A stretch of DNA of 21,398 bases from a virus: positions 1 to 21,398 of IMG/VR virus record IMGVR_UViG_3300029923_000116; one strand, written 5' to 3'. A model generated the notes under the pieces. The model saw nothing but the letters and a program-made list of their open reading frames with translations, ran no database searches and was not told the origin of the DNA. Below, one piece after another: positions 1,807 to 11,885 of this stretch. Numbering within the stretch: position 1 is the first letter of the stretch; each line of letters opens with the position of its first letter. A program made the position numbers and the translations under genes.

Positions 1807-1986
1807 ATGGAACAGATTCTGTTGGCGCAATTGGACCAAGCAAGACGCAACATGGCTCAGGCAGCTTTCGATGAGGACTACCCTGAAGCCTCGGTGTGGA
1901 TGTACAAGATTGAAGCGCTGGAAGACGTGCTGGCTGAGGCTGGCGTACATAAACAAGCTGATAACGTGGTGAATATCCATGGCTAA
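1807..1986 (+). CDS. Small helical hypothetical protein, 59 aa
   Basis: A 59-residue acidic protein that appears to be two helices (MEQILLAQLDQARRNMAQAA and an Asp/Glu-rich second helix around SVWMYKIEALEDVLAEAG). The start is set at ATG 1807 because AGGAGG at 1796-1801 is five bases upstream; an in-frame GTG at 1804 is too close to it. The function is unknown. Its 3' end overlaps by eight bases the gene at 1979, which opens the amidoligase island. Confidence 0.65.
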   Translation: MEQILLAQLDQARRNMAQAAFDEDYPEASVWMYKIEALEDVLAEAGVHKQADNVVNIHG

Positions 1987-2875
1987 AGTATTGGACTGGG
2001 ACAGCCTCATCGCCCAGGCAAAAGAACAACTGATCAAGGCAGTGGGGAAACGCAAGGACAACGCGGCAGCGGCGTTCATTGGCGAGGATGGCGAGATTAA
2101 GGTGACTGGTGGTTATGTCTGCCACGCTTTCCTGAACTACCACAAGGCCAAGATCATCGTCAACAGCCTGCAAGAAGGCAGCGGCTACGGTGATAACCCC
2201 GGCCGTGTACTGGCTCCCGAAGTCGAGCACTGGTTCGTGGACTACATGCTCAACCGTAGCATCTACAAGGATGCGTTCATCACCAAAGATGCCACTCAAG
2301 CTCTTGCTGAGGGCGTGGTGCTGATTGACGGTGACAAGCCGGGCAACCTAGTGGGTGGCGCTGCTGTCGGCCTGCGTCGACTCTGGGAGCATGTGTACGT
2401 GGCTCGTGCTGCTTACGATCTCGTGCAACAGGGGGTGAATGAAGACCTCGCCTTCGCTATTGGTCACACCATCCAGGCACCAAGCGAGATTAACCCTGCC
2501 ACCAACGTGTCGTGGTCGGCCAACCTCAACTGGCACACCTCGTTGAATCCTGACAGCCTCGGTTGGAAGGGGTTGAAGAACCTCTTGGCACACAAGTTCA
2601 AGCCAACCGATAAGTATAGCCTGACCGGCCACTACCGCAACTACAGCGACATGTTCGCCGAGCAAGGTGATGGTGGTGGGCTGGTGGCCATCATCCGCAA
2701 GGATTTCCCTTACAATCTGTGCAAGGGTGAACGCAAAGGCGTTAGCCTCAACCCATTCGGTGCTGCCCTAAAGGCTGAAGAGAAAGTCATGGGCAACAGT
2801 GTACCCTACAACCGTGCCATCGAAGTGATGGCTAAATGGGCTAACACCCATCTGATGGAGAAGATCAATGCCTAA
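1979..2875 (+). CDS. Conserved-looking hypothetical protein of the amidoligase island, 298 aa
   Basis: No family is recognised. The protein is soluble and mostly helical, with no signal peptide or membrane segment. A Trp- and Asn-rich centre (SWSANLNWHTSLNPDSLGW, about residues 178-196) and a KGERKGVSLNPFG stretch near residue 255 look like conserved structural elements rather than an obvious active site. It overlaps the preceding gene by eight bases, and its own 3' end overlaps the class I amidotransferase gene by eight bases, so it is translated together with that enzyme. Its position makes it a candidate substrate carrier, acceptor or regulatory partner of the amide-forming pathway, but this rests only on neighbourhood. 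The ribosome-binding site before ATG 1979 is weak, consistent with coupling. Confidence 0.8.
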   Translation: MAKVLDWDSLIAQAKEQLIKAVGKRKDNAAAAFIGEDGEIKVTGGYVCHAFLNYHKAKIIVNSLQEGSGYGDNPGRVLAPEVEHWFVDYMLNRSIYKDAFITKDATQALAEGVVLIDGDKPGNLVGGAAVGLRRLWEHVYVARAAYDLVQQGVNEDLAFAIGHTIQAPSEINPATNVSWSANLNWHTSLNPDSLGWKGLKNLLAHKFKPTDKYSLTGHYRNYSDMFAEQGDGGGLVAIIRKDFPYNLCKGERKGVSLNPFGAALKAEEKVMGNSVPYNRAIEVMAKWANTHLMEKINA

Positions 2876-3503
2876 AGTATTCATTGTTGGTGGCCGTGCC
2901 CCTGCGTATGAACGCATGTACACCGATGCAGGCTGGGACCTGTGCAAAGGGCCACTCAAGGCTGACCTGATCCAATTCACAGGCGGTGAAGACGTATCCC
3001 CCTGCCTGTACGGCGAGGAACGTCACCGCACCACTGGTGACAACCTGGAGCGCGACCTGTATGAAGCTAGCTTCTTTGCTTTTGCACGTCGTATGGGCAT
3101 CCCTATGGCCGGCATTTGTCGTGGCGGGCAATTCCTTAATGTAATGTGTGGTGGGTCGATGTACCAGCATGTGAACAAGCATGCCACTGGCCTCAATCAC
3201 ATCCTGACGGACGTTGCCACCGGCGGCAAAATCTCGGTTAGCTCCACTCACCACCAGATGATGCGGGCCGGGCCTGGGGCTGAACTTGTAGCCACTGCTG
3301 CTCTCGGCGGATTCAAAGAGTACATGCAAGGTAATGAGGTGGCCAAGTGTCTTGATGCTGAGGAGCCTGACACAGAGGTGGTGTACTATGCCGCCTGTAA
3401 GGCTCTGTGCTTCCAGCCACACCCCGAGTTCTTCGACAAGGCTGACCAGTGCCCGCAATACTTCTTCGAGCTGCTGGACCGATACCACGGCCTGCGTGCG
3501 TAA
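2868..3503 (+). CDS. Class I glutamine amidotransferase-like hydrolase (peptidase C26 / PuuD type), 211 aa
   Basis: This alpha/beta hydrolase of the class I glutamine amidotransferase fold is most like gamma-glutamyl-GABA hydrolases. The N-terminal part contains TGGEDVSP (38-45), the C26 version of the loop leading to the oxyanion hole. The nucleophile is Cys84 in AGICRGGQFLN, and the other triad residues are His185 and Glu187 in FQPHPEF. A STHHQMM stretch (126-132) matches the conserved SxHHQ segment of C26 enzymes. Expected activity is hydrolysis of a gamma-glutamyl amide, either releasing ammonia or trimming a gamma-glutamyl product. The length is slightly under the family norm (about 230-260), with the loop after TGGEDVSP shortened. 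GGAG at 2857-2860 gives a 7-base spacing to the ATG. It could be a free hydrolase rather than an ammonia-channelling subunit. Confidence 0.9.
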   Translation: MPKVFIVGGRAPAYERMYTDAGWDLCKGPLKADLIQFTGGEDVSPCLYGEERHRTTGDNLERDLYEASFFAFARRMGIPMAGICRGGQFLNVMCGGSMYQHVNKHATGLNHILTDVATGGKISVSSTHHQMMRAGPGAELVATAALGGFKEYMQGNEVAKCLDAEEPDTEVVYYAACKALCFQPHPEFFDKADQCPQYFFELLDRYHGLRA

Positions 3504-3504
3504 T

Positions 3505-3747
3505 ATGGACCAGCTCATGGACCTTGCCAATGAACAGATCAATCTGGCGGAGAATCCGCTCAAGGTTGAGATTGCCCTCATTGGCATTACACGTGAACAG
3601 GCACTGGACCTGTCCAAGCTGTACTCCGCCAATGGTGTGGGGTACATGACTGTTGGTCCGACCTACAACGTGAAACGAAAAACCACGCTCACTTACCTTT
3701 TGTGGGCACCATCACGGGAGCAGCACGACCTAAACCTTGGCCGGTAA
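3505..3747 (+). CDS. Small hypothetical protein of the amidoligase island, 80 aa
   Basis: An 80-residue protein of unknown function. It starts with a Leu/Asn-rich helix (MDQLMDLANEQINLAENPLK) and ends with a basic, beta-rich part (NVKRKTTLTYLLWAPSR). No ribosome-binding site precedes the ATG, which lies two bases after the previous stop, so reinitiation is likely. It is followed by the second copy of the repeated intergenic element, so it ends the first transcription segment of the island. Nothing links it to a specific step except position. Confidence 0.65.
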   Translation: MDQLMDLANEQINLAENPLKVEIALIGITREQALDLSKLYSANGVGYMTVGPTYNVKRKTTLTYLLWAPSREQHDLNLGR

Positions 3748-3748
3748 G

Positions 3749-3801
3749 GGAATGCTAGCGCTCGCAATTAACTTCAGAAAATCTTTCAAGGAATCAACCC
3801 A
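3749..3801 (+). promoter_or_regulatory. Repeated intergenic element, copy B (candidate phage promoter)
   Basis: GGAATGCT (3749-3756), ATTAAC (3767-3772), AGAAAAT (3776-3782) and GAAT (3791-3794) repeat the arrangement found at 360-406. The spacing differs by one base, and the intervening bases have mostly diverged, which suggests the blocks are kept by selection. AAGGA at 3788-3792 is the ribosome-binding site of the following gene, nine bases from its ATG. It would give the ammonia-generating and ligase genes their own promoter. No terminator-like hairpin is visible here. The promoter role is inference. Confidence 0.45.
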
Positions 3802-5157
3802 ATGTGCGGATTAGTGGGCGTGGCCGGTTGCATCACGGTCAAACAAGAGAACGCTTTCAAGCAACTGCTTGAAATTGACACACTTCGCGGCCCACACTCC
3901 ACAGGCATTCTCGCTGTGGATGCAAGAGCCAATCCAGTTGTGTTCAAGAAGGTGGGCACCCCGTGGGACCTGATGCAGTACAAGCAATACGACGAGATCT
4001 TTCGTCCGTCGCTGAACGTGCTGATGGGTCACAACCGGTGGGCCACCAAGGGCAAAATCACCAGCGTCAATGCTCACCCATTCGAGCATGGTCACATCAT
4101 CGGTGCCCACAACGGCACCCTGCGCAACCAAACCCTATTGCCTGATCACCTCGAATATGAAGTGGACAGCGACAACATCTTCCACGCCATTGAAATTTTG
4201 GGTGTGGACGATACCGTCAAGCGCCTGGCCGGGGCATTTGCCCTTACTTGGTACGATGGTATCAGCGAGTCGATGAACTTCATTCGCAATGAAGAACGTC
4301 CCCTGTGGATCTGTGAAGACAAGGAAGAAAAGACCGTGTTCTGGGCGTCGGAACGCTGGATGCTCGAAATCGTGCTCCAGAAAGCCGACATCAAGTACAA
4401 GGAGCCCTTCCAGCCGAAGCCCGGCCAGTTGTTCACGTACAAACTGGACCACGGCTACCAGCCTAAAGCATTCAAGGCGGTCGAAGTTACTGACTTGAAA
4501 TTGCACGAATACCCTGTGTATGTGCCACCAGCAAAGACGACTGGCGCAGGGACCGGAAACTCCGGGACTGGTAAGTCCGCGAATGGCAACGTCTTCGAGA
4601 AAGAGGACAAACGCGGAAAAAAGCTCATAACCCCAAACGAACTGGTTCTTCAAGACAGGGTCGAGTTCTTCGCCTCGTCCCTTCGGACCAGTGAAACCAC
4701 TGGCGCTCAGTGGATTTCGTGCGGGGCCACTCAGGACAACTGCGAGATTGAACTGCGGTTGTATGTGAATGACCCTGCCTTGGCTGACTGGGTATTGAAC
4801 AGCGTTCACTTGTTCGAGGGCAAGGTGCGTAGCTTCACTACCCTGGGCGGTCAGACTTACGCAATTCTCGACCCTACTTCAATCATCGAACTCATGGAAG
4901 TCGATCAGACGACCTTGCCTGAAGAGGAAGAAGAGTGGGCCGTCGTTTACGGCGGTGAAATCATATCCGAAAGCAACTTTGATCTGTTGGTGTCTTGTGG
5001 CTGCGGCAATTGCAAGGCAGTACCCACGATCGAAGAAGCTGAAGATATCGTGTGGCTGGACAAAATGAACTTCATCTGTGGCGAATGTAAGGATTTGCCC
5101 GTGGTGAGTGACTTCGTAGAACGGGCAATCGAAGCCCAAAAAACAGGTACTAAGTAA
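3802..5157 (+). CDS. Class II (Ntn-type) glutamine amidotransferase with Cys-rich C-terminal extension, 451 aa
   Basis: After removal of Met, Cys2 becomes the N-terminal nucleophile (MCGLVGVAGC), as in GlmS, PurF and AsnB amidotransferase domains. Further family motifs are GHNRWATKG (76-84), the NAHPF loop (90-94), AHNGTL (102-107) and the VDSDNIF segment (121-127). This domain, about residues 2-215, hydrolyses glutamine to glutamate and ammonia. No asparagine synthetase, PRTase or SIS synthase domain follows. Instead there is a Gly/Thr/Ser/Lys-rich linker (about 244-275), a beta-rich segment (about 280-370), a run of Glu (374-378), and a metal-binding-looking end with Cys399, Cys401, Cys404, Cys426 and Cys429. 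The ammonia user must therefore be a separate protein, most simply one of the ligases encoded downstream. Its stop overlaps the next start by one base. Confidence 0.93.
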   Translation: MCGLVGVAGCITVKQENAFKQLLEIDTLRGPHSTGILAVDARANPVVFKKVGTPWDLMQYKQYDEIFRPSLNVLMGHNRWATKGKITSVNAHPFEHGHIIGAHNGTLRNQTLLPDHLEYEVDSDNIFHAIEILGVDDTVKRLAGAFALTWYDGISESMNFIRNEERPLWICEDKEEKTVFWASERWMLEIVLQKADIKYKEPFQPKPGQLFTYKLDHGYQPKAFKAVEVTDLKLHEYPVYVPPAKTTGAGTGNSGTGKSANGNVFEKEDKRGKKLITPNELVLQDRVEFFASSLRTSETTGAQWISCGATQDNCEIELRLYVNDPALADWVLNSVHLFEGKVRSFTTLGGQTYAILDPTSIIELMEVDQTTLPEEEEEWAVVYGGEIISESNFDLLVSCGCGNCKAVPTIEEAEDIVWLDKMNFICGECKDLPVVSDFVERAIEAQKTGTK

Positions 5158-6026
5158 TGACTTTGAATATTCTGGTAGGTGCGGACCCGGAAGTATTTGT
5201 GCGTAAGGTCGGCAAAAAGCAATTCCAATCCGCACATGGGCTTATCGAGGGTGACAAAAAGAACCCTCAGAAAGTCCAAGACGGCGCTGTCCAAGTGGAC
5301 GGTATGGCGTTGGAGTTCAACATCGACCCCGCCAAGAACGAAGCGGAGTTCGTGAAGAACATCACCGGCGTCATGAAGATCATGGGCGAGATGGTGCCTG
5401 CTTACGAGCTGGTTCCTGTGCCTGTGGCCAACTTCACCCAGCGTGTGATGGATGCCCAACCTAAAGAGGCCAAGGAGTTGGGTTGCGACCCAGACTTCAA
5501 CGCCTGGAATAACGGTGAGGCCAACCCACGGCCCAACGGCGCGGTTAACTTCCGCACTGGTGCTGGTCACGTCCACATCGGTTGGACTAAAGGCGTCGAC
5601 GTGGCTGACCCTGGCCACAAGGAAGCCTGCATCATGGCAACCAAGCAACTGGACTTCTATCTCGGTCTGGGCAGCTTGATCTATGACTCAGACACCAAAC
5701 GTCGGACCATGTACGGGGCACAGGGGGCGTTTCGTCCGAAACCCTATGGTGTTGAGTACCGTGTGCTCAGCAACGCCTGGTTGCAGTCTGAGGAGCTTAT
5801 GGCATGGGTCTATCGGACCACTGTCAAGGCTATCAATGATCTGTTCGAGGGTAAGCCAGCGTACAACGATCATGTCGAGCTGATGGCTGCTGCCATGAAA
5901 TCCAAAAAGCCGAACATGTGTCACGTCCGTTACATCCTGGACAAACTCGGCGTTGAACCTCCTCCGGGCTTCAAGAAAGCTCACAACATCTACGACGGTT
6001 ACATCCCTGTCGAGAAGGCGGCTTAA
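5157..6026 (+). CDS. Phage carboxylate-amine ligase of the glutamine-synthetase-like fold (COOH-NH2 ligase type 2), 289 aa
   Basis: The sequence has the marks of the phage GS-like amidoligase family. GADPEVFV (8-15) supplies an acidic metal ligand at Glu12, MALEFNID (50-57) a second at Glu53, and TGAGHVHIGW (134-143) the paired histidines His138 and His140. GAQGAFRPKPYGVEYRVLS (187-205) holds the phosphate/metal-binding Glu200 and Arg202. Such enzymes activate a carboxylate with ATP and join it to an amine or ammonia; the substrate here is unknown. The gene follows the class II amidotransferase with a one-base overlap, so ammonia from that enzyme is a reasonable amine source. The N-terminal region is short compared with bacterial GCS2 enzymes, typical for phage members. 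Its role as ligase is well supported by motifs; the reaction is inferred. Confidence 0.88.
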   Translation: MTLNILVGADPEVFVRKVGKKQFQSAHGLIEGDKKNPQKVQDGAVQVDGMALEFNIDPAKNEAEFVKNITGVMKIMGEMVPAYELVPVPVANFTQRVMDAQPKEAKELGCDPDFNAWNNGEANPRPNGAVNFRTGAGHVHIGWTKGVDVADPGHKEACIMATKQLDFYLGLGSLIYDSDTKRRTMYGAQGAFRPKPYGVEYRVLSNAWLQSEELMAWVYRTTVKAINDLFEGKPAYNDHVELMAAAMKSKKPNMCHVRYILDKLGVEPPPGFKKAHNIYDGYIPVEKAA

Positions 6027-6028
6027 TC

Positions 6029-6583
6029 ATGTCAATGTATGGCAAAGACCACGAGTATGCACACAGCCGACTCGTAGAAACCATCGTCCGCAAGGGCAAA
6101 ACACCGATCTTTGTCGTGTCTGTGAACAAGGGTATGGTCGTAAACTACTACCGTCTGGACGAGGTGGGTGGTGAGCTGCGTACCTGCGACATTGACGACT
6201 TGGACTTGCACCCAGTCCCGCTGGGCTACTGCAACTTCAACAAGTACGCCACCTACTTGAGCCGGATTCCGATGCGTCGGGACTGGCGTCAAGGGCTGCG
6301 CAAGGGTAACTTTGCCTCGCAAGGTCAAGGTTATCCTGGCGAACGTATCCCGTATGACGCTCTCAATCAGGTCATCATCGGTGAATACCCAACCTACCCT
6401 GCCTGCCTGGACGCTGTTCGCAAGATCAAGTCCATGGCATGGAGTCGCTGCTGGTCCGTAGACAACGGGCTGGATGTGTACTACAAGGGCGGTCGTAACC
6501 CAGTGGGCAAGGTCGAGGAAGGGAACGTCATCCTCGTACCGTCTTTCAGCTATCTCAAAGAGGCTTTACAGGAGTCGCTATGA
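6029..6583 (+). CDS. Hypothetical protein between two amidoligase genes, 184 aa
   Basis: A basic, Tyr- and Arg-rich soluble protein with no family I can name. The best-conserved-looking part is at residues 64-94, containing [18 protein letters not shown] and then an Arg-rich [14 protein letters not shown] segment; I have the impression that similar segments occur in other phage proteins near amidoligases, but I cannot verify this. The C-terminal half contains [20 protein letters not shown]. It lies two bases after one ligase gene and overlaps the next ligase gene by four bases, so it belongs to the same translation unit. The basic core could bind a nucleic acid or a polyanionic acceptor; this is speculation. 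Confidence 0.8.
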
Positions 6584-7467
6584 AAACAGTGATGCAATGG
6601 TTTCGTCTTAACAAGAAGTACAAGACGGCCGGTGACGTGGGCATCGAAATTGAAGTCGAAGGGAAGCGTCTCCCAGTAGCGGAGAAGTTCTGGAACAACG
6701 AGTTGGACGGGTCACTCCGCGGCGAGGAGACTCGTGAGTACGTCCTGATGAAGCCGTCGACCTTGAAAGAGGCCAAGATGGCTCTAGCTTATCTGGACGC
6801 TCAGTACAAGGCACACGATACTGTCGTTGATGACAGCGTCCGGGCAGGTGTACACGTTCACGTCAACGTGCAAGACCTGAATGCCATCGAGCTGTACAAT
6901 TTCATGGTCCTCTATCTGATCTTGGAAGAGGTGCTGGTGAAGTGGTGCGGCCCACACCGGGAAGGCAATCTGTTCTGTCTGCGGGCTGGTGACGCTGACT
7001 TCCTGCTGGGCCAACTCCAAGCAGTGGCACAAACTCGTGACTTCGGCGCACTTCACAGTGACCAGTTGCGTTATGCCTCCATGAACGTGAAAGCTCTGGG
7101 CACCTATGGTAGCCTTGAGTTCCGTGCAATGCGTGGCACCCGTGACCTTGACTTGATTTACAAGTGGGCTGAGGTGCTGGTTGGCCTGCGTGAAGTGGCC
7201 AAGGGGTTTGAAAACCCTGAGAAAATCATCGAGTGGTTCAGTTCGGGTGACGCTAAGTCGTTCCTGATCCATGCCCTCGGTGAGAACGCTCGTGAGTTTG
7301 CCTGTGAAGGCTATGCTGCCATGCTACATGATGGCATGCGCCGTGCTCAAGATGTGGCGTTCTGTGTTGACTGGAACGATTACCATGAGGTAGCCAAGAA
7401 GTTGATCGGCGACCTTGAGTTCCCGTTGGACATGGAGTTCCCTAACGAGCCACTGGAGGATTACTAA
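6580..7467 (+). CDS. Putative amidoligase of the glutamine-synthetase-like fold (Amidoligase_2 type), 295 aa
   Basis: This second GS-like amidoligase is different in sequence from the one at 5157. VGIEIEVEG (20-28) gives the metal-binding Glu23/Glu25, followed by ELDGSLRG (41-48) and EYVLMKPS (53-60). AGVHVHVNV (89-97) carries His92 and His94, and [20 protein letters not shown] (164-183) holds Asn169, Glu180 and Arg182 of the active-site strand pair. All catalytic positions expected of the family are present. It is likely to form an amide or isopeptide bond using ATP; the partners are not known. Having two GS-like ligases with distinct signatures suggests two successive additions rather than redundancy. 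GGAG at 6571-6574 is five bases from the ATG; the start overlaps the previous gene by four bases and the stop overlaps the next ATG by one. Confidence 0.9.
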
Positions 7468-7679
7468 TGATACTCCTAACTCAAAAGGAATACGATGATG
7501 CCCGTTCACCTGCGGGTAAAATGGTCTATGTTGTGACCTATCTTACCTGGGATGGACCAGAGTTCATTGCTGTAACTAGTACAGAAGAGCTGGCTAATCT
7601 GGCCGTTGGCAGCGACATGGCTAAAAACAAAGGCCGCAAAGAAGTTCACTACGAAATTGATCTGGAGACAGTCCAATGA
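7467..7679 (+). CDS. Small hypothetical protein between amidoligase and ATP-grasp genes, 70 aa
   Basis: A 70-residue protein of unknown function with a beta strand (KMVYVVTYLTWDG), a helix (STEELANLAVGSDMAKNKG) and a charged end (KEVHYEIDLETVQ). The pattern is that of a small alpha/beta domain. No Cys, no membrane segment. It overlaps its neighbours by one base at the 5' end and four at the 3' end, so it is translated with the two ligases and could be a subunit or acceptor in their reactions, but there is no direct evidence for either. Confidence 0.7.
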   Translation: MILLTQKEYDDARSPAGKMVYVVTYLTWDGPEFIAVTSTEELANLAVGSDMAKNKGRKEVHYEIDLETVQ

Positions 7680-8869
7680 AAGCAGCAATCTATCCGTACA
7701 AACCTGGTAGCGAATCGTGCAAAGCACTGGCACAAGGTTTGGATCTGGTCCGTATCGCTCACAAAGACAGCAAGTACAGGGGCGGTAAGGACAAACTGGT
7801 CATCAACTGGGGTGCCTCCAAGGTGCCTGAAGAGGTGAGCAAGTCCATCATCCTCAACCTGCCACAAGCTGTACAACAGGCGAGTGACAAGTCCCTGGCC
7901 TTCCGTCGCATGAACGAAGGCCGTCGTCTCACTCGCAAGGTGATGGCTGGCGGCGCAGTTCACGAGCTGGCGATTGATCACGGCCTATTCAAACAAGTGG
8001 CCGATGACTTCGTTGGTCGCTTTGATGGTGGCAAGTATGGCATCATTGACGTCCGTGAGCCCGCCCCAGACGCACAAGCCTACTGCCGTACCCCTGAGTA
8101 CACCACTGACTTCCACAAGGCTCGTATGTGGTTTCAGCAGGGTCACACGGTCGTTGAACGTCACGTCCTGAACGGCCACAGTGGCGAGGGCATCCGTCTG
8201 GTTGAGCCAGGCACCGGTGATGAAATCTCTCGTGCCCCTCTGTACGTCAAGTACGTGCCGAAGAAACAAGAGTACCGTATCCATGTGTGTGGTGGCATGG
8301 CCGTTGACGTACAGCGTAAAGCACGCCGGAAAGATCTGGCTGACGATGAAATCAACTGGAAAATCCGTAACCATGACAATGGGTTTATCTTCGCTCGTAA
8401 CGAAGATGGTCAGGTTCCACAAGATGTGATTGACCAGTCCGTCCGGGCTGTCAAGGCACTCGGCCTGGCGTTCGGTGCAGTTGACGTAATCTTCAACGAC
8501 AAGGCACAGCAGGCATACGTGTTGGAAGTCAACACCGCACCTGGCTTGGCTGGTGAGACTCTGGCTGGCTACGTCGGTCGCTTCCAGGAGTACCTGGCTG
8601 GCGCAGTACCACTGCCCGCTCAGATCATCCCCAAAGAGTTCATCGGTGAGGACGTTGATCCGATCGATCCGTGGGCCAACATGGGTGTTAATCCTGATTG
8701 GATTAAAGCACCACCTCCTCCAGCTCCTGCACAGGACGGTTACAAAGCCAAGAAAGCACCGAAACTCTTCGGCGGTTTGGCTGCTGCTAAGGCTGCTGCC
8801 ATTGCTGATATCCAGGGCTTCCAAGCTGACATGCAAGTAGCTGACGAGGATGACGACGAGATTTTCTGA
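7676..8869 (+). CDS. ATP-grasp ligase with Pro/Ala-rich acidic C-terminal tail, 397 aa
   Basis: The ATP-grasp fold is shown by the nucleotide-binding loop HVLNGHSGEGIRLV (163-176), the hinge and strand LYVKYVPKKQEYRIHV (189-204) and the metal-binding end GAVDVIFND (267-275) with YVLEVNTAPGL (281-291), where Asp270, Glu284 and Asn286 are the expected magnesium ligands. These enzymes form an acyl-phosphate and attach an amine or peptide to it. The first 130 residues are a less conserved substrate domain. After about residue 330 the protein continues with a Pro-rich linker (APPPPAPAQ), a Lys/Ala-rich helix and the acidic end ADEDDDEIF, which is not part of the catalytic fold. It is the last gene of the island and is followed by a terminator-like hairpin. 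GGAG at 7664-7667 is eight bases from the ATG. Confidence 0.92.
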   Translation: MKAAIYPYKPGSESCKALAQGLDLVRIAHKDSKYRGGKDKLVINWGASKVPEEVSKSIILNLPQAVQQASDKSLAFRRMNEGRRLTRKVMAGGAVHELAIDHGLFKQVADDFVGRFDGGKYGIIDVREPAPDAQAYCRTPEYTTDFHKARMWFQQGHTVVERHVLNGHSGEGIRLVEPGTGDEISRAPLYVKYVPKKQEYRIHVCGGMAVDVQRKARRKDLADDEINWKIRNHDNGFIFARNEDGQVPQDVIDQSVRAVKALGLAFGAVDVIFNDKAQQAYVLEVNTAPGLAGETLAGYVGRFQEYLAGAVPLPAQIIPKEFIGEDVDPIDPWANMGVNPDWIKAPPPPAPAQDGYKAKKAPKLFGGLAAAKAAAIADIQGFQADMQVADEDDDEIF

Positions 8870-9168: not shown

Positions 9169-10890
9169 ATGGGCCAATGTCTGGTAAAGACAGCTCACAG
9201 TTGCGGTACACGTAACGGTTTGCAAGTCTATGAACAAGAAGATGGGAGCCTGGATGGGTTTTGCTGGTCGTGCAACAAGTACGTAGCGAACCCACTGGGC
9301 GTTGGTAAAACCATCCACGACATTCCCAAGCATGAACGACTAGCCAAGTCCGCCGAAGAAATTCAAGCGGAGCTGGATGAAATCGGAGAGTGCGGGATTG
9401 TAGACTTAGAGGACAGGCGTCTCCGAGCAGCAGCACTTGATTACTACGGTATCAAGGTCGGGTATGACCGGGCTGATGGTAAGACGCTCAAGTTCCTCTA
9501 TTTTCCATACATCGCTAAGGCTCGCCTTCAGTCTTACAAAGTGAAACTAATCGAAGGTAAGAAGTTCTGGTCTGTTGGTGATCAGTCGAAGGTTGATTTG
9601 TTTGGGTGGCAGCAAGCCAAAGAAAGTGGGGCCAAGCGATTGGTCATTACTGAAGGTGAGCTGGACGCTGTAGCACTCAAGGTTATCTTCGACACCTATG
9701 AAAAAGCTGAGTACAGGGACTTTATCCCGGCGGTTTGCAGTTTGCCCCATGGCGCAGGATCTGCCCATAAGGACATCGCTCGACTAGCCCCTGAGATCAC
9801 TAAGTTTTTCAAAGAGGTGAGCTTCTGTTTCGACGATGATGAGCCAGGCCATCAGGCCACGGAGGAATGCCTCAAGATATTCCCTGGCGCTACGGTCGTC
9901 AACCTGCCCTGCAAAGATGCGAACGAATGTATCATCAAGGGTAAGGGCAAGGCAGCCTTCCAAGCTGCCAAGTGGCGTGCTGAGGTCAAGAAGAACACTC
10001 GTCTTGTGTTCGGTGAGGACTTGCACGAGGAAGCACGAGAGGTGGCAAAACGAGGCGAGCTTACATGGCCTTGGGAAAAGCTGAATGACATCACTCGTGG
10101 TATCCGTTACGGCGAAACCATTTACATTGGTGCCGGTGTTAAGATGGGCAAGTCGGAACTCTTGAACGAGTTGGGCGCGCACTTCATCAAGAACCACGGT
10201 GTCAAAGTGTTCATGGCTAAGCCCGAAGAAGCCAACAAGAAGACTTACAAACTTCTCGCTGGCAAGATTGTAGGTAAGGTGTTCCATGACCCTGATCGTG
10301 ACTTTGATTTCAATGCTTACGATGACGCTGGCGCTGTGCTGTATGGCAAGCTCGGCATGGTCAACCTATACCAGCATCTGGGGTGGGAGTCTCTCAAGGC
10401 TGACATCTATGCAGCGGCTGGCTGGGGTGCCAAGGTTATCTTCATCGACCCTATTACGAACTTGACCAACGGTATGGAAGCCGCAGCAGCTAACATCAAA
10501 CTGCAAGAGATTGCACAAGAGTTGGCAGCGATGGCCCTGGACCTTAACGTCGTCGTGTTCATCTTCGTCCACTTGAAAGCACCAGAAAACAACATCAGCA
10601 AAGATGCACGGCTGAAGTCCTATAAGGACGGTAAATATATCGGCCTCGGTAATTGCCCTCACGAGCTTGGTGGGGACGTAAGTTCGAACCAGTTCGCTGG
10701 CTCTCGGGCTATGATGCGTTCCTGTAACTACATGCTTGCACTGAAGGGTAACAAGGATGCGATCTTGAACGACCACATCCGTAACATCCGTGAGCTTGAG
10801 CTGTTGGAAGACAGGGAGTTCGGTGAGGTAGGCAACTTCCCACTGTACTGGAACCGCAATACAACGCACTTCGAGGAGTTGGACCAATGA
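9169..10890 (+). CDS. DNA primase-helicase, T7 gp4 type, 573 aa
   Basis: This bifunctional enzyme unwinds DNA and makes RNA primers at the replication fork. The N-terminal zinc motif is formed by Cys12, Cys32 and Cys35 plus a nearby His or Cys (HSCG at 10-13, FCWSC at 31-35). The TOPRIM primase core has LVITEGELDAVAL (158-170) with Glu162 and FCFDDDEPGH (219-228). The DnaB/RecA-like helicase domain follows a linker at about 290, with Walker A GAGVKMGKS (321-329), Walker B KVIFIDP (422-428) and the H4-like FIFVHLKAP (464-472). The size matches T7 gp4 (566 aa). A strong ribosome-binding site, GAGGAGG, precedes the ATG by 3 or more bases. The stop overlaps the next ATG by four bases. Loader activity is probably not needed, as in T7. 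Confidence 0.95.
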   Translation: MGQCLVKTAHSCGTRNGLQVYEQEDGSLDGFCWSCNKYVANPLGVGKTIHDIPKHERLAKSAEEIQAELDEIGECGIVDLEDRRLRAAALDYYGIKVGYDRADGKTLKFLYFPYIAKARLQSYKVKLIEGKKFWSVGDQSKVDLFGWQQAKESGAKRLVITEGELDAVALKVIFDTYEKAEYRDFIPAVCSLPHGAGSAHKDIARLAPEITKFFKEVSFCFDDDEPGHQATEECLKIFPGATVVNLPCKDANECIIKGKGKAAFQAAKWRAEVKKNTRLVFGEDLHEEAREVAKRGELTWPWEKLNDITRGIRYGETIYIGAGVKMGKSELLNELGAHFIKNHGVKVFMAKPEEANKKTYKLLAGKIVGKVFHDPDRDFDFNAYDDAGAVLYGKLGMVNLYQHLGWESLKADIYAAAGWGAKVIFIDPITNLTNGMEAAAANIKLQEIAQELAAMALDLNVVVFIFVHLKAPENNISKDARLKSYKDGKYIGLGNCPHELGGDVSSNQFAGSRAMMRSCNYMLALKGNKDAILNDHIRNIRELELLEDREFGEVGNFPLYWNRNTTHFEELDQ

Positions 10891-11251: not shown

Positions 11252-11406
11252 CAAGGCTTAAGTCTACGGAGGAGCTAGCGGCCAGGATTGTACGGGCTAA
11301 CCTTGACTTACACTTTGGCGATGACTCACCAGACCCAATCTCGAAGCTGGCCTTCCGCAATATCGTGGAGATGGTGGCTAAGCTCTTGGAGGAAAGCCGG
11401 CGATGA
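11248..11406 (+). CDS. Small hypothetical protein before the sigma factor, 52 aa
   Basis: A 52-residue protein of unknown function: a charged helix (TEELAARIVRANLDL), a short acidic loop (FGDDSPDP) and a second helix (NIVEMVAKLLEESRR). It overlaps the zinc-ribbon gene and the sigma-factor gene by four bases on either side. Its codons near the end supply GGAGGA (11388-11393), the ribosome-binding site of the sigma factor. A sigma-binding or anti-sigma role would fit the position, but this is speculation. Confidence 0.65.
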   Translation: MTRLKSTEELAARIVRANLDLHFGDDSPDPISKLAFRNIVEMVAKLLEESRR

Positions 11407-11885
11407 ACGAGGTGTTCGGTAAGTTCTATGAAGACAACAGGAACGATCTTGTACGACGGTTAGCCTATGGTGCTGGCAGTCCTGAAGCAGCCGAGGATGT
11501 GCTTCAGGAGGCTTCTGCCCGTGCCCTCATGTACTGGGACACGTTCAACCCCGAGCAAAAGGAACTCGGTGCGTGGTTTAGCACCATCCTCAAGAACGCC
11601 CTACGTGATTACAAACGTGCCGAGTGGTTGTTTGGCATGGGTGAGGAGTTCGATGAGGAGCAGTATGACCCTCAGGAAATGCCTATCGACGAGACAGAGT
11701 TAGTAAAGAAGATCTACGCGATGATCGACGGTAAACTCGAAGACCATCAAGAGATTTTACTGTTCTACTTCGAGAAGCATTACTCTCCACAAGATATCGC
11801 TAACGTCACTGGCTTCAAGGTGAAGACCATCAAGCAGGTGATCTGGCGTTTTAAAGCGGAGGTCGTGGATAAACATGGTACCTGA
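11403..11885 (+). CDS. ECF-like RNA polymerase sigma factor, 160 aa
   Basis: A two-domain sigma factor of extracytoplasmic-function type. Region 2 (about 4-75) contains SPEAAEDVLQEASARAL (26-42), the helix that contacts the polymerase clamp, and GAWFSTILKNALRDYKRAE (56-74), which corresponds to the -10-reading segment. An acidic linker (81-98) leads to region 4 (about 100-153), with DHQEILLFYFEKHYSPQDIA followed by the helix-turn-helix VTGFKVKTIKQVIWRFK that would read the -35 box. The protein should redirect host RNA polymerase to phage promoters, as the phiEco32 sigma factor does. The length (160) is normal for ECF factors. The best candidates for its target are the repeated elements at 360 and 3749, which begin with the ECF-like GGAAT. 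The ATG has GGAGGA nine bases upstream and overlaps the previous stop by four bases. Confidence 0.88.
   Translation: MNEVFGKFYEDNRNDLVRRLAYGAGSPEAAEDVLQEASARALMYWDTFNPEQKELGAWFSTILKNALRDYKRAEWLFGMGEEFDEEQYDPQEMPIDETELVKKIYAMIDGKLEDHQEILLFYFEKHYSPQDIANVTGFKVKTIKQVIWRFKAEVVDKHGT

Follow-up and report, generated by a model that had tools for sequence, protein, structure and literature searches.

The window analysed here, the linear 21,398-bp virus record IMGVR_UViG_3300029923_000116, is a fragment of a phage related to Pseudomonas phage GP100 (Zobellviridae) and carries at positions 1979-8869 an island of nine genes (g1 to g9; Table 1). This island is a new member, in a form that carries a Peptidase_C26 (C26) gene, of a gene set that is already known and was published as the 'peptidoglycan modification cassette' of RIO-1/phiEco32/LUZ24 phages (Duhaime et al. 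2017, PMC5498523; PMC11945000, both citing Hardies 2013). An earlier reading of the same DNA, made from the letters alone (the sequence-only reading), had proposed a nine-gene island that forms a coherent amide-bond pathway. Both proposals are borne out, with intact open reading frames (ORFs), domain matches for five enzymes, and genes that do not scatter among related phages. The same reading had called the system undescribed, which the published and named cassette contradicts. In our judgment, the window probably holds a complete podophage cassette encoding a cytosolic, glutamate-centered pathway of ligation and trimming.

The components that characterize the published cassette are all present in the window, namely the same two amidoligases, an ATP-grasp ligase, a class II glutamine amidotransferase and a deglutamylase. 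Published cassette phages also share with the window the gene set and order, and the position ahead of primase and polA. The window differs in that C26 replaces GGCT and in that the small genes g3 and g8 are extra. Over 300 phages with known sequences carry the cassette, therapy candidates among them; their hosts include Pseudomonas, E. coli, Vibrio, Rhizobium and Bacteroidetes (crAss-like phages). The product has been a guess ever since the cassette was proposed. In the literature surveyed, we found neither the all-or-none statistic, nor the rule of exchange between C26 and GGCT, nor the structural characterization of g1 and g6 as core proteins that are described below. The all-or-none pattern, the obligatory C26 or GGCT, and the two newly recognized core proteins make the cassette a defined seven-part pathway.

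Co-occurrence of the genes, as opposed to independent occurrence in related phages, was the check proposed in the sequence-only reading. For this check, the two ligases and the ATP-grasp enzyme served as baits to retrieve 236 loci from viral contigs, profiles were built, and scoring covered the 94 independent loci that had enough flanking sequence on either side. All five core genes were found together in 90 of the 94 loci. The class II amidotransferase was present in 93, g6 in 90, C26 in 81, g1 in 76 and GGCT in 40, and these counts are not circular because none of the genes just listed served as bait. The commonest order is g1, C26, class II amidotransferase, COOH-NH2 ligase, g6, Amidoligase_2, ATP-grasp, primase and polymerase, which is also the order in the window.

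A control independent of the cassette was anchored on the DNA polymerase and comprised 35 loci in which 7 kb or more lay upstream, although several of these records are fragments. Core genes were entirely absent from 26 of these loci, whereas four were present in one locus and five in eight, an all-or-none pattern that could stem from a small number of gains or losses, given that the cassette-free polymerases are mostly less than 50% identical to the query. C26, GGCT and g1 were missing from the 26 cassette-free loci as well, and the ligase was also absent from the rest of their records. Searches of 50,697 annotated phage records with tblastn yielded similar numbers of matching records for g5 (316), g9 (309), g4 (329) and g7 (317), with nearly identical host breakdowns (for example, Pseudomonas 121/120/121/117 for g5/g9/g4/g7). 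Pairwise distances of the module genes correlate beyond those of replication genes (0 of 300 permutations), ATP-grasp excepted. The cassette is inherited jointly, and it is also carried by crAss-like phages, whose replication region is different. No gene fusions that would link pathway steps were seen among the loci examined. When 84,980 species of bacteria and archaea were scanned, six COOH-NH2 ligase loci turned up, all with the module; bacterial homologues were rejected as functional clues because these six loci sit in phage-looking contigs of metagenome-assembled genomes.

The deglutamylase is obligatory but can take two forms. C26 alone was found in 54 of the 94 loci, GGCT alone in 13 and both in 27, and no locus had neither (Fisher p 4e-6, relatedness ignored). 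On a ligase tree with 96 tips, there were at least seven exchanges between C26 and GGCT and at least 14 changes of GGCT, but never a loss of both. Such exchanges without loss of both indicate one obligatory slot filled by two unrelated folds that remove gamma-glutamyl groups. The window lacks GGCT, and its slot is filled by g2. A match to the C26 gene is likewise seen in PA11 and CW02, two of the published cassette phages, so GGCT is not a defining component. Two crAss-like phages of the same subfamily differ in the same manner, phi14:2 having GGCT and cr108_1 having C26. The cassettes of these two phages are reduced and reordered, and they lie beside a uracil-DNA glycosylase gene (L335, 6605-12270, and L336, 4655-11732, respectively).

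The sequence-only reading had listed g2 as a class I amidotransferase-like hydrolase and had proposed the stepwise addition of glutamine-derived ammonia or amines. This protein matches Peptidase_C26 (PF07722) with 73.5 bits against a cut-off of 20.5 (2.8e-20), whereas its 17.2 bits with the GATase model fall below the cut-off of 22.8. Its solved relatives in the PDB are the gamma-glutamyl hydrolases Lin1909, 7d4r/7d53 and PuuD, although its score with the PuuD equivalog model (26.4) is far below the cut-off of 266. The triad Cys84-His185-Glu187 is kept in 98-100% of 122 sequences. C26 and GGCT enzymes cleave gamma-glutamyl amides, and because GGCT replaces C26 in sister lineages, g2 is predicted to be a gamma-glutamyl hydrolase and not an ammonia donor, an assignment that also fits the C26 score above and the GATase score below the respective cut-offs. 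Both the amidotransferase label and a role in ammonia supply give way to this assignment, and the class I enzyme is best read as a putative deglutamylase.

The remaining enzymes also have intact active sites. Protein g4 matches GATase_6 (PF13522; 60.7 bits, cut-off 27, 1.9e-16), with Cys2, Asn104-Gly105 and Asp122 conserved in ~100% of 146 sequences. Its PDB relatives are the N-domains of GlmS and PurF, but their synthase domain was not found in g4, whose C-terminal extension instead bears a CxCxxC...CxxC motif. Class II N-terminal nucleophile (Ntn) enzymes without a synthase domain, such as EgtC, can cleave gamma-glutamyl amides. The two carboxylate-amine ligases match COOH-NH2_lig (g5; PF14395, 33.5 bits, cut-off 25; PHROG 3815, 3e-86) and Amidoligase_2 (g7; PF12224, 30.5 bits, cut-off 22), and the active-site Glu, His and Arg of g7 are kept in 97-100% of 156 sequences. 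ATP-grasp protein g9 matches PHROG 2599 at 9e-83 but Pfam only below threshold, and its ATP-grasp residues are invariant among family members. Its closest solved relatives are the alpha-L-glutamate ligases 7qyr/RimK (7e-8, PDB), although it scores only 21.6 bits with the RimK-family model TIGR00768 (NCBIfam; cut-off 143.4). Overall, catalytic residues of the cassette enzymes are 95-100% conserved, and ratios of nonsynonymous to synonymous substitution (dN/dS) relative to GP100 are 0.09-0.31 across seven conserved genes, which together exclude a chance array of genes.

The sequence-only reading had counted four unknown genes within the set. Two of these, g1 and g6, are true core members, while g3 and g8 are lineage-specific additions that are not conserved. 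No Pfam or PHROG match was found for g3, and g8, which matches DUF7336 below its cut-off, is present in 1 of the 94 loci. Among 103 very divergent members of the g1 family, Cys48, Arg133 and His186 are invariant and Glu137 and Ser94 nearly so, and g1 is a probable Cys-dependent enzyme judging from these residues. Its AlphaFold model (predicted local distance difference test (pLDDT) 90, predicted template modelling score (pTM) 0.90) has no fold match in the PDB at E<1 (best E 1.0), a Pfam search over 76 members gave stray single matches only, and a profile search of the PDB gave only repeat-protein noise. Fourteen viral models (BFVD) match the g1 model at E<=1e-3. The named matches all come from cassette-carrying phage groups (CVT22, CW02, RIO-1, GAP52 and Aeromonas phages), with GAP52 having two g1 paralogues at about the structural threshold of E 1e-3. 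Because of the origin of these structural matches, g1 is probably more universal in the cassette than sequence searches reveal. Long forms of g1 (L006, 2633-4114; L011, 1163-2488) have an N-terminal extension that appears SH3/KOW-like by eye and recalls g6. The AlphaFold model of g6 is beta-rich (pLDDT 97), and its best fold matches are tandem SH3/Tudor/KOW domains at a non-significant E of 0.05; SspH-like matches were given by 8 of the 81 g6 members. We regard g6 as a probable targeting or scaffold subunit.

In the pathway that we favor, g5 and g7 would use ATP to activate a carboxylate and join it to an amine; in characterized ligases that share their glutamate-cysteine-ligase fold, the group activated is usually glutamate's gamma-carboxyl. 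The RimK-like g9 would add a further glutamate-type residue, since RimK relatives add glutamate. Protein g4 would hydrolyze glutamine or a gamma-glutamyl amide, and the deglutamylase (g2 in the window, GGCT elsewhere) would strip gamma-glutamyl groups according to a protecting-group logic for which PuuA/PuuD, EgtA/EgtC and BtrJ/BtrG are precedents. The probable task of g6 is to hold the complex or the target; g1 may perform a further Cys-dependent step. The order of reactions and the donor glutamate are what we infer from these assignments. In virions of phage SU10, the ATP-grasp enzyme, the class II amidotransferase, GGCT and a 23.3-kDa protein were detected, making up four of the six early proteins found there (PMC4281155). 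The mass of the last protein fits g6 (23.2 kDa), and the detection hints at a complex or at mere abundance.

Several observations weigh against this pathway. No solved relative of g5 or g7 is detectable by sequence, and the donor role of glutamate is drawn from fold relatives only. In some loci the ATP-grasp gene has been duplicated or exchanged, and its variation does not track that of the other module genes; its mirror-tree is uninformative, probably owing to paralogues. Members of the cassette in crAss-like phages have no recognizable g1 and g6, and the SU10 result could reflect co-purification of abundant proteins. Finally, the cassette literature demonstrates no substrate or product, in agreement with the statement in the sequence-only reading that no product had been shown.

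We consider a cell-wall precursor and a small metabolite or amine to be equally possible acceptors, each of them doubtful. A host or phage protein ranks below these two, DNA is very unlikely, and any other acceptor is the least likely. The peptidoglycan target of the published cassette is a guess, by which the cassette would put three unusual peptide linkages on peptidoglycan precursors and thereby block superinfection or ready the cell for lysis. The name was given to RIO-1-like phages, and the cassette is listed for phiEco32, PA11, LUZ24, PaP3, tf and CW02 (PMC5498523; PMC11945000). Enzymes of these types would be apt for making amide bonds on stem peptides, and UDP-precursors are cytosolic, as befits nine proteins that all look soluble. 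However, the cassette lies among replication genes and away from lysis genes, no racemase or other cell-wall gene is among the annotated module genes, C26 relatives work on soluble gamma-glutamyl amines, and a change of the wall would need to take effect inside one short lytic cycle. Peptidoglycan alteration by the cassette is not demonstrated for any member in the cassette literature, and overall we find this explanation possible but rather doubtful.

The resemblance of g9 to S6/alpha-L-glutamate ligases is consistent with protein modification, in which the SH3-like g6 would recruit the ribosome, RNA polymerase or another protein, the ligases would add glutamyl or peptide tags, and the hydrolases would edit them. 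The weak fold matches of g6 include KOW/Tudor proteins of the ribosome and RapA, and module proteins co-purify with SU10 virions. Nevertheless, g9 falls far short of the RimK-family cut-off and thus differs from the RimK S6 glutamylase, the g6 matches are not significant, and no small acceptor peptide is conserved among the loci, leaving this explanation somewhat unlikely. A precursor peptide of the ribosomally synthesized and post-translationally modified (RiPP) or graspetide type was rejected because ORF clustering over 152 loci gave no conserved small module gene beyond apparent shadow ORFs. Graspetide and R2K peptide ligases, some of which occur in phages (PMC4431377), resemble the cassette in using ATP-grasp enzymes to form peptide-like bonds, but the cassette lacks a conserved precursor peptide, and the R2K_2 match (17.7) is below the cut-off of 26.2.

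The genes might alternatively serve auxiliary nitrogen or amine metabolism by mobilizing glutamine nitrogen or by tying up polyamines or amino acids. Genes of this kind are often termed auxiliary metabolic genes (PMC10580990), and the C26 protein resembles PuuD and related hydrolases. In the Puu/Spu gamma-glutamyl-polyamine pathway, as in the cassette, gamma-glutamate is ligated and later removed by a C26 hydrolase. The Puu/Spu ligase, however, is the glutamine-synthetase-type PuuA rather than a PF14395 or PF12224 enzyme, and no such ligase, oxidase or aldehyde dehydrogenase is among the nine cassette proteins. Seven interlocked, all-or-none genes, g1 and g6 included, also exceed the needs of nitrogen salvage, and we judge this explanation unlikely.

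Hypermodification of DNA that shields the phage genome from restriction is very improbable. The cassette adjoins primase and DNA polymerase, and phiEco32-like carriers (Gordonclarkvirinae, e.g. L005 and L337) are remarkably resistant to restriction-modification with no known modification (PMC11990801). In contrast, DNA of LUZ24-like phages, which are relatives in a cassette-carrying genus and not the window phage itself, is cut by EcoRI, HindIII, Sau3A and AluI (PMC3634792), by BamHI (PMC8540360), and by RsaI, HpaI, EcoRV, SmaI and HaeIII (PMC3517423). Palindrome avoidance is equal in phages with and without the cassette (p=0.43 and 0.30), and the conserved set has no base-modifying enzyme. 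Because ten restriction enzymes cut and palindrome avoidance is unchanged, a DNA target is unlikely in the LUZ24 branch. With PADLOC, none of 8 proteins matched known defence or counter-defence families.

A bolder proposal, which we advance tentatively, is that, early in infection, the cassette either installs a new kind of glutamyl-amide modification on a protein of the host or phage or yields a new metabolite. Under this proposal, g1 would be an enzyme with a Cys/His center and a new fold, C26 and GGCT would be interchangeable deblockers, and the 'peptidoglycan' label would be wrong.

The nine ORFs all lie on the same strand, start with ATG and have no broken frames (Table 1). The DNA polymerase and primase proteins of the window are 96% and 92% identical to those of GP100, whereas cassette proteins are 43-83% identical, except for the poorly conserved g8 (22%). 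The fastest-evolving of the conserved genes is g1 (43%). Synonymous divergence (dS) is about 1-1.7 in the cassette region versus 0.5-0.8 in primase and polymerase, which suggests that the cassette may have been replaced through recombination.

Table 1. Genes of the cassette in the window, with the distance in bases to the preceding gene (negative values, overlap).
Gene	Position	Strand	Distance	Description
g1	1979..2875	+		~300-aa protein, conserved Cys/Arg/His, no PDB fold match
g2	2868..3503	+	-8	Peptidase_C26 gamma-glutamyl hydrolase-type enzyme
g3	3505..3747	+	+1	80-aa orphan, not conserved
g4	3802..5157	+	+54	Class II Ntn glutamine amidotransferase domain (Cys2) and C-terminal extension
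g5	5157..6026	+	-1	COOH-NH2 ligase type 2, first carboxylate-amine ligase
g6	6029..6583	+	+2	Conserved beta-rich, SH3-like protein
g7	6580..7467	+	-4	Amidoligase_2, second carboxylate-amine ligase
g8	7467..7679	+	-1	70-aa small protein, lineage-specific
g9	7676..8869	+	-4	RimK-like ATP-grasp ligase, low-complexity C-terminal tail

HNH homing endonuclease genes occur beside or inside cassette genes in other phages (L001 [GP100], 10180-10647; L005, 3945-4415), and one such gene splits the COOH-NH2 ligase gene of phage Bas89. Between primase and polymerase, the window also encodes a 160-aa protein (11403-11885) with a match to sigma factors of RNA polymerase (PHROG 1740, 2.9e-24), and this podophage may therefore encode its own sigma-like regulator.

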